From: Synechococcus elongatus PCC 11801
Lineage (GTDB): Bacteria; Cyanobacteriota; Cyanobacteriia; Synechococcales; Synechococcaceae
Length of the DNA stretch: 64,000 nucleotides
Assembly (NCBI RefSeq): GCF_003846445.2
Contig: NZ_CP030139.2
Span: 930,001-994,000 of the forward strand
Direction of reading: 5' to 3'
This document shows, one piece after another, positions 9,212 through 55,672 of the stretch. Below the pieces are notes generated by a model. That model was not told where the DNA came from. It made no database searches and saw only the letters and a list, made by a program, of their open reading frames with translations. Made by a program: the position numbers and the translations under genes. Each line of letters begins with the position of its first letter. Within the stretch, counting starts at the first letter, position 1.

Positions 9212-9523
9212 TTATGCAGACCATCGCTGCTTTGAAGCAGAGAGCAATGATTGCCATTCACTGAAAGGCAGCTCCTTCATGTCCCAGTGACAAAAAGATT
9301 CCATTTCGACTGGAGTTGGTCCTTGTTTCTGTAATTCTTTGGGTAGGTAGTCCTCCTCGGGGTCTGCGATCGCCGGTTTGGTCAGTTGAGAGTGTGTGGC
9401 TGGATCCCTGGGCAACCAAACGAGGGAGTTAAGCACCACGAAGATCACGAGACTCAGACCCAGTTGAAACGCCCAGTCTTGGCTTGGGAGTAGTGCGAGG
9501 GTCGGCAGAAAGACGCAGGTCAT
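9212..9523 (-). CDS. hypothetical membrane protein with EEDYLP tail
   Basis: A 103-residue protein if the ATG at 9523 is used; a TTG at 9559 would add 12 residues. There is one hydrophobic helix (WAFQLGLSLVIFVVLNSLVW) followed by a soluble tail. Tail residues ~52-95 contain EEDYLPKELQKQGPTPVEME, then an aromatic SEWQSLL ending. A second copy of this tail, without a start codon, exists at 55751-55936 on the same strand, so the family is duplicated in this genome. The function is unknown. One HIP1 site lies inside the gene. Confidence 0.55.
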   Translation of the reverse strand: MTCVFLPTLALLPSQDWAFQLGLSLVIFVVLNSLVWLPRDPATHSQLTKPAIADPEEDYLPKELQKQGPTPVEMESFCHWDMKELPFSEWQSLLSASKQRWSA

Positions 9524-9839
9524 AGCAGTTGGTTCGGTCGCGATAGCACTAGTTTCCAACTCCCGGATCTTTTTGGCTGGATTTCAGTGCGAATGTCAAA
9601 ATGAAATCTCTAACATTCTCTCTATCTCCAATCATCTCAACCTCATAGACAGCTAATTGCTATCCGAGAACAGATAGCCTAAAAAGAGTTGTTTAGATTC
9701 GAGTTCTTGGCAATTCGGCGGGATATCTTGGCACCTCGTCAAACCAATGTATCGTCATAATTACTGATGTAATAGCTAGGCTTTTAAAAAAACCACGAAG
9801 CAGCCTAATTAATACTGAGAATCTTTTAATTAATGGATT
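9524..9839. other. AT-rich intergenic stretch
   Basis: No gene is seen. A small hairpin (GCTATC ... GATAGC, around 9658-9678) has no T-run on either strand. The bases resemble the surrounding HIP1-poor segment. Confidence 0.4.
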
Positions 9840-51786: not shown

Positions 51787-52239
51787 CTAGTCTAATCGCT
51801 GTGCAGCAGCTAGCTGCTGGGGTGCAAGGCGATCGCTCCGAACTCCTGGCTTCCCGTTCAACCAGAATTGGACACCTAGCTTCGCCAGCTCAGGATGTTG
51901 CTGACAGTAGTCCTGCCAGAACTGCTGCAGATGAAGGCCATGGGAGAGGGCGATCGCTAGCTGTGTCCAAGTTGGAGTTGTGGCAAAGCGCACGCCCAGC
52001 TGAGAGGCTAGCCTCCGACAGTGTCGATAGGAACCATAGCGCTCCTTCAGCTCCTCGACCGATAGGATCTGAAGCTCTTGAACAGCACCTAACGCCAAGG
52101 TCGGAGAGTCCAGCGCTGCCTCGGCTAGTTCAGAAAATTGAGCGGCGACTGCTGCTAGATTTGCCTCTGCCCGTATCCGCTGGCGTTCCAATGCTTCGGA
52201 CTTAGCAATCGTTTGGCGCAGCCGTTTTGCTAGGCTCAT
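51787..52239 (-). CDS. hypothetical protein, last gene of HicA-like operon
   Basis: A 150-residue unknown. The N-terminal ~45 residues are an Arg/Glu-rich helix (SLAKRLRQTIAKSEALERQR), and the rest is mixed with Trp and His (HGLHLQQFWQDYCQQHPELA). No domain is recognised. Its ATG overlaps the stop of the upstream HicA-like gene by 4 bases, so the two proteins are probably made in fixed ratio and may form a complex. There is no signal peptide or membrane helix. Confidence 0.65.
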   Translation of the reverse strand: MSLAKRLRQTIAKSEALERQRIRAEANLAAVAAQFSELAEAALDSPTLALGAVQELQILSVEELKERYGSYRHCRRLASQLGVRFATTPTWTQLAIALSHGLHLQQFWQDYCQQHPELAKLGVQFWLNGKPGVRSDRLAPQQLAAAQRLD

Positions 52240-52943
52240 GCGTCCAACTCCTTGATCTCCAAAATGTGTTGTAGCCGTCCAAGCAGCGTTTGCAGGAGCT
52301 GGTCAGTATCTCCCCCTCGGGCTTGCTGAGTCGCGGCCTGTTCAACCACTGCTTCCACTTGCTCTAAAGCAGCCAAGATCAGTTTGAGTTCTGCATCCAC
52401 CATCCGCTTCTCAGCCGTGACTCGCTGCAGATTTTTCAAAGCTGATGCTGCCTGGCGCTTGGCCTTATGTAACTGCTGTTTCGCTTCCTGTAGCTGCTGA
52501 CGAAGCTTTTTCGTCCGTTTCCCAAACCAGTGTTTGAGCGTATTATTTCGCTCTTCCAGCTCTAACAGCAGTTCTTCATAGACTTGTTGGTCTTCTTCTG
52601 CTTTCTTGAGGCGCGCCAGCTGCTCATCTTTTTGCTGCTGTAGCGCCAGTCGATCGCGATCTTGACTGATGTTCGTTAGGTGTTGCTCCAGCTCTGCTAC
52701 TTGCGATCGCAAATCTCGGATTACTTGATCTTGTCTAAGTGGATACAAGAGCTGCTTAGCTACCGCATTGGCTGTTCCCACAGGGATTCGCTTATTGTCG
52801 TTATGACCAGGAATCGGAACACAGACATAACCCGGACGAGTCGCTTTGAGTTGTTCGGATCCAGCAGGTTCAATCGACCAGCCGCATTCACGTGCAAACC
52901 GAATGATGTCCCGTCGTCGTGGGTTTCGAGGCAAGTGGGGCAT
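52236..52943 (-). CDS. HicA-fold domain plus long coiled coil
   Basis: A 235-residue protein. Residues ~8-70 match the small dsRBD-like HicA toxin fold: RDIIRFARECGWSIEPAGSE, then VCVPIPGHNDNKRIPVGTAN. The catalytic His that follows GS in active HicA RNases is Glu-Gln here, so RNase activity is doubtful and RNA binding more likely. Residues ~75-195 are an uninterrupted coiled coil rich in Glu, Gln, Arg and Lys, and the tail is LLQTLLGRLQHILEI. ATG at 52943 follows a GAGGA site. There is no HicB antitoxin gene next to it. It is the middle gene of a minus-strand trio. Confidence 0.65.
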   Translation of the reverse strand: MPHLPRNPRRRDIIRFARECGWSIEPAGSEQLKATRPGYVCVPIPGHNDNKRIPVGTANAVAKQLLYPLRQDQVIRDLRSQVAELEQHLTNISQDRDRLALQQQKDEQLARLKKAEEDQQVYEELLLELEERNNTLKHWFGKRTKKLRQQLQEAKQQLHKAKRQAASALKNLQRVTAEKRMVDAELKLILAALEQVEAVVEQAATQQARGGDTDQLLQTLLGRLQHILEIKELDA

Positions 52944-52992
52944 TGTCAAATCCTCTAATGACTCAACAGCAGGATAGAAATGGCGATCGCGG

Positions 52993-53385
52993 CTATGCAG
53001 AGAATCGATGCGAACAAGAACTTAGACTCATCGGCTCATAGTCATAGAACGGCAGGGCATTGACCCCCGCTGCTCGCGCCTTGGCATCCAGCCCCAGCAA
53101 CCACCCCACCCAACTCGTCCCGCGTTGCTGACAGTCCAGCACCACCACTTGCTCTCGCTGCGCTAACAGCTCATGCGCCAACTCCGGCAGCGATCGCCAC
53201 TCCGCATCAGCACAGCCCGCTTGCTGCGCATCTGCCCGAGCGATCGCCTCCGCCAAGTCAAGCGACAGAAACAAAAACCGCGCCTGGTCATAGCTGTAGA
53301 GAAACTGCACATGCACGCAGCGCTCTCCCTCACTACTAATTGCCGCACCGCAGACCGGACAAATCATCTGCAAAGACTCAGACAT
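52993..53385 (-). CDS. hypothetical protein with N-terminal zinc knuckle
   Basis: A 130-residue protein. It opens with ICPVCGAAISSEGERC, a C-x2-C-x10-C pattern suited to metal binding. The rest is a compact alpha/beta region (FLYSYDQARFLFLSLDLAEA, VVVLDCQQRGTSWVGWLLGL) with two or three more Cys. No family is recognised. ATG at 53385 is preferred; GTG at 53466 would extend it across the inverted repeat in the divergent spacer. It is the first gene of the trio and faces the kinase-WYL gene. Confidence 0.6.
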   Translation of the reverse strand: MSESLQMICPVCGAAISSEGERCVHVQFLYSYDQARFLFLSLDLAEAIARADAQQAGCADAEWRSLPELAHELLAQREQVVVLDCQQRGTSWVGWLLGLDAKARAAGVNALPFYDYEPMSLSSCSHRFSA

Positions 53386-53448
53386 CACAGCACCCGAATG
53401 AAAACTGGACTGAGTCTGCAGCCCGTCCCAGCGGATTAACAGCAGCTG

Positions 53449-53487
53449 GATGCGAATATCAAACACACCCCTGTTATCATTCGCATC
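53449..53487. promoter_or_regulatory. 9-bp inverted repeat in divergent spacer (candidate WYL operator)
   Basis: GATGCGAAT (53449-53457) and ATTCGCATC (53479-53487) are perfectly inverted and 21 bases apart, so the half-sites are 30 bp centre to centre, near three helical turns. The site lies between the Zn-knuckle gene and the kinase-WYL gene. WYL-type regulators are dimers that bind such split repeats, so autoregulation is a reasonable inference. Confidence 0.5.
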
Positions 53488-53551
53488 AAATGCCTGACTT
53501 TTCTCTCCGGTTCAGCCCAGACTCAGGCATCGCTTTGTATCCTTCAGTCGC

Positions 53552-55672
53552 GTGTCCTCAGATCTCTTCCTCAACCATCTCCTGATTGGCCCGCCCGCCA
53601 GCGGCAAAACCACCTTCGCCAAATCCCTCCAGCAGGAACTCGGCGCAGCGGTGATCCTCTCCACTGACCGCATCCGCGAGCAGCTCTACGGCGATGCCGC
53701 CATTCAAGGTCCCTGGGAAGAGATCGAAGCAGAACTGCAGCGCCAGATTCAGCAGGCCGTCGCAGATGGCAAAGCCATCATCTACGACGCCACCAACGTC
53801 AAACGCGCTTGGCGCATGGGCTTCCTCCAGCAAGTCAGTCCCCTCGGACTGCCGTGGATTGCCTGGGAACTCAAGACCGATCTCAACACCTGCAAAGCCT
53901 GGAATCAGCAGCGACAGCGCGTCGTCCCAGAGCGCGTCATCGAAGACTTCTATCGCTACCAACAACACCTCCGACCCACCCTCGGAGAAGGCTTTGTCGG
54001 GCTCGCCAGCTTCAATCCCACGCAAGATACCAACCCGGCAGCAGTTATCCAAGCCCAGCTCAAAAAGTGTCGGCGCAGCGGCATCAATCACGAAAATCGC
54101 TACGCCAAAACCGAGACCCATCGCTACTCCCGACTCCTCGACTTCGACCGCCTCATGCACTTGCTCGCCTTGCTCAGCCGCTATCCAGGCCTCGGGCAAC
54201 TGCGTGACCAAGACCCCGCCACCCTCGAACAGCTGCTCAAAACCAGTCCTGCCCCCGTCTTTGTCGATGCCGTCGCTGAGATTGCCGCTGTCCTCCGCGC
54301 CCAGCAGGGACCCCTCTATGGCGATGAGGCCGCGATCGCCCTCGATTTGCAATGGCTGGAAGCGGAAGGCTTCCTCGGCTCCGATGTCGTTGCCCAAGAC
54401 CTCCGCCTACCCCCGCTCACCCAGCCAGACCCACCCCTCTTCTTCCATCACTACAGCGATCGCGCTCCCTTCTCACGGCTGGTCAAAACCATTCGCTTCA
54501 TCCTCCACAATCCCCTCACCCAGGAGGAGGTTTACCAAGAGCAGCGCTCCTTTGGCCTCTCCCCTCGGCGCATTGATATCCTCGCCAGCCAACTCGAGCA
54601 AGCCGGCATCCTCTATCAGACAGAACAGGGCATGCTGCGCAAAGACATCGAGTGGGTCCTCCATCCCTACAGCATCTTCCCAGAACCCAGTCTGCGCAAA
54701 GGCTACTACCTTGGCACCGGCATCCTCAACCGCAGTCAACTGGAGCAGATCTATCAACTGGTGCAGAAGCAGGCTGATGGGCTCGATGACCCGCTGGCCA
54801 CCGAGACCTTCCGGACCCTCGAAGCACGGCTCCAGTGGGCGCGCTTTAACCCCGCCACCCTCTACCCCGTTCGCTCCATCAGTCGGGGCAGCATTGTCTC
54901 AACCGATCTCCTCAGTCGCGAATCCCTCGCCACCGCCACTGCTGGCAGTGTGGTCGAAACGGATATCCGCAATGCCCAGAAGATTCGGATTGGACGCATT
55001 GCCGGAGCAGCTCAGTTCAAACAACACGATGACCTGCGGCAGAACGAGGAAGAAATCTGGCCGCTGCAGATTGTCTTCCACAACATCGCTTGGTATCTCG
55101 CCTACGAGGTCGCTTCTGGACCAAGACAAGGACTCTTCTGCTACGAGCGCCTCGACCGTTTGTATCGCATTCAGCCCGTTGGTAAACCTCGCTCCCAGAC
55201 AGAGCAGAAGGCAGCGCTCGAGGCCATCACCACCCTCCAGCAGCATGGCTATGGCCTTTTCCTCGGTGATGCCGTTAAGCCCCAGCAAACCTTCCTGCTG
55301 CAAACCCCAGCGGCACGACTCCGCTCCATGGACACCCTCGAGCTGCGCTTCACAGAGTCCCTCTTTGCCTTCATTAGTGAAGGCACTCAGCGCTTCCCCC
55401 TCGCCCAGATGAAGATGTCTCGACCCCCAGGGCGGAAACTCGCTGCTGCTTCGCCTGAACTCCAGAAGCTCTACAGTCTCCCCAAAGCTCCTGACCCCAC
55501 CCATCCCTATCAGCTGAAGGTGAAGCTGCCCGCTTGGTCCCTCCAGGAAATCACCCTCAAAACCTGGCTCCTCGGGCTGCGCGATGGCGTCAAAGTCATG
55601 GCCCCCCATTCCCTGCGCGATGCCCTCCGCCAAGACCACCTCGCTGCTGCTGCCCTCTATGGTGATGACTAA
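53552..55672 (+). CDS. polynucleotide-kinase-like P-loop / winged-helix / WYL fusion
   Basis: A 706-residue protein. Residues ~8-170 are a P-loop kinase of the T4 PNK/zeta type: Walker A GPPASGKTTFAK, STDRIREQLYGD, IIYDATNVKRAWR (family pattern D-x-x-R-x-x-L-x-G and D-A-T-N). Residues ~300-375 look like a winged helix (FSRLVKTIRFILHNPLTQEE). Residues ~495-560 are a WYL-type ligand domain with IWPLQIVFHNIAWYLAYEVA and a final YERLDRLYRI. Separate WYL proteins regulate defence and CRISPR loci and sense nucleic-acid ligands; a fused 5'-kinase is unusual. GTG at 53552 is the start; no in-frame ATG lies close. It is divergent from the HicA-like trio. Other frames inside it are shadows. Confidence 0.75.
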   Translation: MSSDLFLNHLLIGPPASGKTTFAKSLQQELGAAVILSTDRIREQLYGDAAIQGPWEEIEAELQRQIQQAVADGKAIIYDATNVKRAWRMGFLQQVSPLGLPWIAWELKTDLNTCKAWNQQRQRVVPERVIEDFYRYQQHLRPTLGEGFVGLASFNPTQDTNPAAVIQAQLKKCRRSGINHENRYAKTETHRYSRLLDFDRLMHLLALLSRYPGLGQLRDQDPATLEQLLKTSPAPVFVDAVAEIAAVLRAQQGPLYGDEAAIALDLQWLEAEGFLGSDVVAQDLRLPPLTQPDPPLFFHHYSDRAPFSRLVKTIRFILHNPLTQEEVYQEQRSFGLSPRRIDILASQLEQAGILYQTEQGMLRKDIEWVLHPYSIFPEPSLRKGYYLGTGILNRSQLEQIYQLVQKQADGLDDPLATETFRTLEARLQWARFNPATLYPVRSISRGSIVSTDLLSRESLATATAGSVVETDIRNAQKIRIGRIAGAAQFKQHDDLRQNEEEIWPLQIVFHNIAWYLAYEVASGPRQGLFCYERLDRLYRIQPVGKPRSQTEQKAALEAITTLQQHGYGLFLGDAVKPQQTFLLQTPAARLRSMDTLELRFTESLFAFISEGTQRFPLAQMKMSRPPGRKLAAASPELQKLYSLPKAPDPTHPYQLKVKLPAWSLQEITLKTWLLGLRDGVKVMAPHSLRDALRQDHLAAAALYGDD

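Follow-up and report, generated by a model that had tools for sequence, protein, structure and literature searches.

The window, a stretch of 64,000 nucleotides from Synechococcus elongatus PCC 11801, encodes a protein in which a polynucleotide kinase (PNK) domain is joined to a transcription regulator of the WYL type (here called kinase-WYL). Comparison with related sequences indicates that kinase-WYL probably controls a type III-B CRISPR-Cas regulon in other cyanobacteria, and that the copy in the window, an orphan, probably acts on the promoter of its own gene and on the adjacent zinc (Zn)-ribbon gene. A WYL regulator of CRISPR is of an already known kind; the PNK fusion, the III-B regulon motif and the survival as an orphan appear to be new as far as checked. 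No description of the PNK-WYL fusion or of the motif was found in the open-access literature, most subscription journals lying outside this coverage. The on/off switching of type III CRISPR-Cas is poorly known, and a candidate regulator with its operator and promoter set makes this question directly testable.

Domain organization and predicted structure of kinase-WYL

The first-pass annotation of the window had described a 706-residue fusion of a PNK-like P-loop domain with a WYL domain, and both parts were recovered by profile and structure searches. Residues 9 to 135 matched the Pfam profile AAA_33 (9.5e-27), and the protein matched the PHROG polynucleotide kinase profile at 2e-15. With a profile of the 40-member kinase-WYL family, the best solved relative was the kinase domain of Clostridium thermocellum Pnkp (CthPnkp; 5e-18). 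The kinase residues were strongly conserved in alignments of 33 and 40 homologues: the P-loop GPPASGKT, STDxIR (D39/R42), DATN (D79-N82) and R121/R123. The P-loop, the D-x-x-R acceptor motif, DxTN and the lid arginines were invariant or nearly so and align to CthPnkp. In the regulator part, the PADLOC WYL model, tagged as CRISPR associated, matched residues 472 to 696 (7.8e-12), and W-Y-L is spelled literally at residues 514 to 516. The Pfam match of the window protein to WCX was weak and below the cut-off. A PADLOC match to Csx3 (E = 0.018) was confined to the P-loop.

The AlphaFold2 model had a mean pLDDT (predicted local distance difference test) of 85 and a pTM (predicted template modelling score) of 0.61, with two low-confidence linkers. 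The best fold match was DriD bound to single-stranded DNA (ssDNA) and DNA (3.4e-9), followed by CthPnkp (6.5e-9, template modelling score of 0.75 on the target) and then PafBC; the P-loop domain is kinase-like in predicted structure as well. A helix-turn-helix (HTH) is predicted from the helical residues 162 to 370 of the model and a DriD alignment of about 420 columns, without a separate HTH profile match. The PADLOC WYL match and the DriD and PafBC folds identify a WYL domain with a WCX extension. Kinase-WYL is thus predicted, from sequence and model, to be a DriD/PafBC-type HTH-WYL-WCX regulator with an N-terminal polynucleotide kinase domain, and DNA binding is predicted. A phage origin of the whole protein was rejected, as phage records matched the kinase domain alone (at most 24% of the query).

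DriD of Caulobacter and PafBC of Mycobacterium, whose folds match the regulator part best, are WYL activators with the same HTH-WYL-WCX architecture. Both are ssDNA-activated damage regulators, and DriD binds its own site asymmetrically, which is counted as a likeness (PMC12340889). Kinase-WYL differs from them in its N-terminal PNK domain and its linkage to III-B CRISPR. Sll7009, which is cited as the WYL repressor of subtype I-D CRISPR-Cas in Synechocystis, is likewise a cyanobacterial WYL protein over a CRISPR-Cas locus (PMC4012209, PMC9122601), but the CRISPR type is another one and no kinase is described there; this comparison is by description. The 5'-polynucleotide kinases CthPnkp and T4 Pnkp share the kinase fold and catalytic motifs, whereas kinase-WYL has no 3'-phosphatase or ligase module and is fused to a transcription regulator. 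Csx3', a Csx3 ring nuclease with a kinase/transferase domain, is also a cyanobacterial III-B accessory protein carrying such a domain (PMC7371418), but its sensor is a Csx3 fold instead of HTH-WYL, the kinase domains being compared by description. BrxR and CapW are, like kinase-WYL, WYL regulators beside defence genes, and BrxR binds inverted repeats (PMC9122601); they differ in having no kinase, a different operator and a predominantly proteobacterial distribution.

Linkage of kinase-WYL relatives to type III-B CRISPR-Cas

Full-length relatives (about 35 to 42% identity) were patchily distributed across cyanobacteria. Their loci were found by an alignment-based query of genome contigs, whereas a single-sequence query returned none, and counts of copies in genomes may miss some due to candidate limits of the genome search. 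PADLOC detected Cmr3, Cmr4, Cmr6, Cas10, Cas1 and Csx1 in the fetched neighbourhoods. Genes of cmr or cas10 were located within 10 kb of kinase-WYL in 43 of 80 loci, a set that partly overlaps the first-fetched neighbourhoods, and kinase-WYL was usually divergent from cas10. This linkage to cas10-cmr extended across taxa and bears out the annotation's proposal of a defence-linked regulator. Annotated plasmids carrying both kinase-WYL and III-B genes include one of Leptolyngbya BL0902 and pAQ6 of PCC 7002. Cas10 was present in 20 of 33 genomes with kinase-WYL versus 22 of 258 others (p = 3e-11). Within the 80-locus set, several genera had kinase-WYL copies with no cmr genes close by.

In the window genome, Cas1 and Cas10 profiles gave no match, and its CRISPR-free status rests on these two profiles, no array search having been made. 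The window kinase-WYL is regarded as an orphan because neither protein was found.

A motif shared by kinase-WYL and cas10 promoters

A blind count of 6-mer inverted repeats upstream of kinase-WYL showed no excess over shuffles; the signal emerged as a half-site 8-mer. The top 8-mers in 65 dereplicated upstream regions were GCGAATGA, CGAATGAC and CATTCGCA. The last was present in 18 of the 65 regions versus 1.9% of background tiles (binomial, 2e-16), and its enrichment was 5e-5 after homologues were thinned to 60% identity. A position weight matrix (PWM) was constructed from 22 sites in front of kinase-WYL genes, leaving out the window and its congener (consensus TTTTCATGCGAATGACGAAATTT). In 875 kb, sites of at least 18 bits were located before kinase-WYL (32), before cas10 (28), before cas1/cas2/csx18 (7) and elsewhere (19), and one shuffled copy of the 875 kb contained none. 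Eleven of the 28 cas10 sites were not shared with kinase-WYL and are therefore independent of the matrix training. Among the 19 other sites, two preceded csx1 and several adjoined CRISPR arrays. In about a dozen loci, a CRISPR leader site was separated from the edge of the array by 209 to 214 nucleotides (nt). The motif was also detected before reverse-transcriptase and AlkB operons and was rare elsewhere. Upstream of cas10, it was present in 22 of 23 genes linked to kinase-WYL versus 3 of 23 unlinked ones (p = 1e-8). This distribution is consistent with a 23-bp operator through which kinase-WYL would act on the promoters of cas10-cmr, csx1 and its own gene and on the CRISPR leader.

The inverted repeat of the window and its congener

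Between the window kinase-WYL and Zn-ribbon genes, the core motif forms a perfect inverted pair (Table 1), which the annotation had not mentioned. One congener was available for comparison (G291), whose kinase-WYL is 64% identical to the window protein, and the counterpart of the repeat at this gene is ATGCGAAT-N20-ATTCGCAT. The arms of the two repeats are conserved, while spacer and flanks have drifted. The pattern ATGCGAATN{18,23}ATTCGCAT had one match in each of the two genomes, both at kinase-WYL. CRISPR-linked loci also contained opposed pairs, spaced 40 to 42 bp apart.

The inverted repeat has been kept at kinase-WYL although the window and G291 loci occupy different chromosomal sites. 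In G291 the gene is near a tRNA-Arg gene, and the tRNA-Arg site of the window genome contains a second, shorter Zn-ribbon open reading frame (ORF; L092:7556-7846), a sign that the kinase-WYL locus has relocated.

Elsewhere in the window, an 18.7-bit match at 9582-9604 lies just upstream of a 115-residue minus-strand ORF (9212-9559) and may be due to chance. It was not accepted as a regulon member, the pattern counts being close to those of the reversed-pattern control. Matches at about 22.5 kb in each of the two genomes were likewise left out of the regulon, since their counts were control-like and the two stretches were unlike.

Assignment of the motif to kinase-WYL

Several observations weigh against control of the III-B regulon by kinase-WYL. 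Where no cmr genes lay within reach, the motif preceded kinase-WYL in just 8 of 23 loci, versus 20 of 31 CRISPR-linked loci, and could therefore be a trait of this CRISPR lineage and not of kinase-WYL. Loci that are related cannot be counted as separate events, and the unlinked cas10 genes come partly from a different Cmr lineage. The window's own site scored just 12.9 bits, the rest of the 64 kb containing one site of 18.7 and one of 12.9 bits. Because this score is moderate, the case for its being the operator depends on its exact core, inverted geometry, position and conservation.

The motif might then be bound by another regulator shared across this III-B lineage, with kinase-WYL acting mainly as an RNA-repair kinase under allosteric control by its WYL part. 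The steadier presence of the motif at cas10 (22/23) than at kinase-WYL (27-28/54) would fit this explanation, as would the very strong conservation of the kinase residues and the stand-alone homologous kinase within a CRISPR locus on Synechocystis pSYSA. It is nevertheless considered unlikely: the inverted pair is retained solely at kinase-WYL in the congener and in the CRISPR-free genome of the window, the protein has a DriD/PafBC-type architecture, and cas10 genes unlinked to kinase-WYL are mostly without the motif.

Low probability is also given to a repurposing of kinase-WYL in this lineage as a general responder to nucleic-acid damage, comparable to DriD and PafBC and unrelated to phage defence. 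No genome-wide regulon was seen, as pattern matches in the two genomes were near chance save for the kinase-WYL site. This stands against three observations that such a role would explain, namely that the nearest folds are ssDNA-activated damage regulators (PMC12340889), that AlkB and methyltransferase genes preceded by the motif adjoin some copies, and that several genera have copies with no cmr genes close by.

Proposed mode of action

As a III-B regulator, kinase-WYL may bind the motif as a dimer, by analogy with DriD-type proteins at their sites, with WCX as the predicted dimerisation part. In relatives that have CRISPR, it would set how cas10-cmr, csx1, the CRISPR leader and its own gene are transcribed, and the window orphan probably acts via its inverted repeat on the kinase-WYL promoter and on the divergently oriented Zn-ribbon gene. 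The WYL pocket may sense nucleic-acid ends or nucleotides; nucleic-acid ends would be a sensible ligand because DriD and PafBC respond to ssDNA. Metal-independent RNases leave 5'-OH ends. Where ribonuclease effectors generate such ends, the PNK head could recognise or phosphorylate them, which would tune or terminate the response. It is proposed, tentatively and with little confidence, that kinase-WYL is a single-protein sensor of nucleic-acid ends, whose PNK domain interacts with 5'-OH RNA termini or with linearised oligoadenylates that arise when a type III CRISPR or retron-like system is active and, via the WYL pocket, resets transcription of cas10-cmr, csx1 and the leader, the orphan keeping a break-sensing switch without CRISPR. 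The kinase head suggests a tie between RNA-end chemistry and transcription, and strains of the S. elongatus type, which are genetically tractable and carry orphan copies, would provide a simple CRISPR-free background for ligand finding.

The three minus-strand genes

The kinase-WYL gene is divergent from three minus-strand genes, as the annotation had stated (Table 1). The first two overlap by 4 nt, and the Zn-ribbon gene follows after another 43 nt. Its start is probably at 53385 rather than at 53466, because a homologue starts at the equivalent Met.

Table 1. Features of the kinase-WYL locus, in window positions
Feature	Position	Strand	Remarks
kinase-WYL gene (PNK kinase, helical/HTH region, WYL, WCX)	53552..55672	+	706 residues, GTG start
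PNK-type 5'-kinase domain, residues 8-160	53573..54031	+	alignments of 33 and 40 homologues; nearest solved relative CthPnkp
Helical region with predicted HTH, residues 162-370	54035..54661	+	AlphaFold2 model; DriD top fold match
WYL domain, residues 462-545	54935..55186	+	PADLOC profile, AlphaFold2 model, fold search
WCX-type C-terminal domain, residues 594-700	55331..55651	+	Pfam WCX match weak; consistent with the fold
Candidate operator, inverted repeat GATGCGAAT-N21-ATTCGCATC	53449..53487	.	divergent promoter region; unique in genome; core common to relatives
Small CPxCG...CxH zinc-ribbon/knuckle protein	52993..53385	-	shares operator region; adjoins kinase-WYL in congener too
HicA-like domain (His replaced) with coiled coil, 237 residues	52236..52949	-	not a conserved neighbour
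150-residue protein of a cyanobacterial gene-pair family (coiled-coil protein with ~140-residue protein)	51787..52239	-	family comparison

Residues 13 to 67 of the 237-residue protein matched HicA_toxin (1.9e-5) at 25.1 bits, just under the Pfam cut-off of 27 bits, and GSE is present where the catalytic His motif would be GSH. The annotated HicA-like domain without its catalytic His was thus confirmed, with a match under the cut-off. In 291 cyanobacterial genomes, the HicA-coiled-coil protein had matches in just two further genomes, both weak. Profile search detected no HicB in the two genes flanking it. A toxin-antitoxin function of the trio was rejected, as HicB is missing, the His is lost and the arrangement is not conserved.

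The annotation had also proposed a nucleic-acid-processing or defence module of all four genes, with the trio as effector or partner; a conserved module of this kind now appears very improbable. In G291 the Zn-ribbon and 150-residue genes remain neighbours of kinase-WYL, and the Zn-ribbon gene shares the operator region, both of which speak for a module. However, the HicA-coiled-coil gene of G291 is about 1.5 Mb from kinase-WYL, in front of bolA-like and grx4-like genes, and the 150-residue gene is part of another gene-pair family, with a second copy at 2.67 Mb in the same genome. None of the loci fetched for about 100 full-length relatives contained the trio with kinase-WYL, an outcome that the annotation itself had named as refuting its proposal; homologues of the trio were sought in the first-fetched neighbourhoods and none was found, no separate search being made in the 80-locus set. 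Because the HicA gene is distant in the congener, no homologue of the trio turned up in the searched neighbourhoods and the 150-residue gene belongs to a separate family, the four-gene group is a local arrangement and no conserved system. A coiled-coil protein of about 200 residues and a protein of about 140 residues form a conserved cyanobacterial pair, observed at L094, L095, L096 and L097 (about 1440-2650).

Other genes adjoining kinase-WYL relatives

Some kinase-WYL genes are located behind a retron-like reverse transcriptase (RT) gene and a partner gene. These two genes were directly upstream of kinase-WYL on cyanobacterial plasmids or contigs at L101:7981-12055 and L102:7003-11043 and at L043, L050, L055, L106 and L142, and in L101 and L102 motif sites were detected about 300 nt before the RT gene. 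The arrangement of RT, partner and kinase-WYL is a candidate RT defence operon. At L100:12138-13662 and L101:12139-13663, methyltransferase and AlkB genes are directly downstream of kinase-WYL, and the motif in the gap scored 20.7 and 26.4 bits, respectively. On plasmid pSYSA of Synechocystis PCC 6803 (L098:8986-9501), a stand-alone kinase that is 48.6% identical to the kinase domain is located beside III-B cas genes, with AlkB near.

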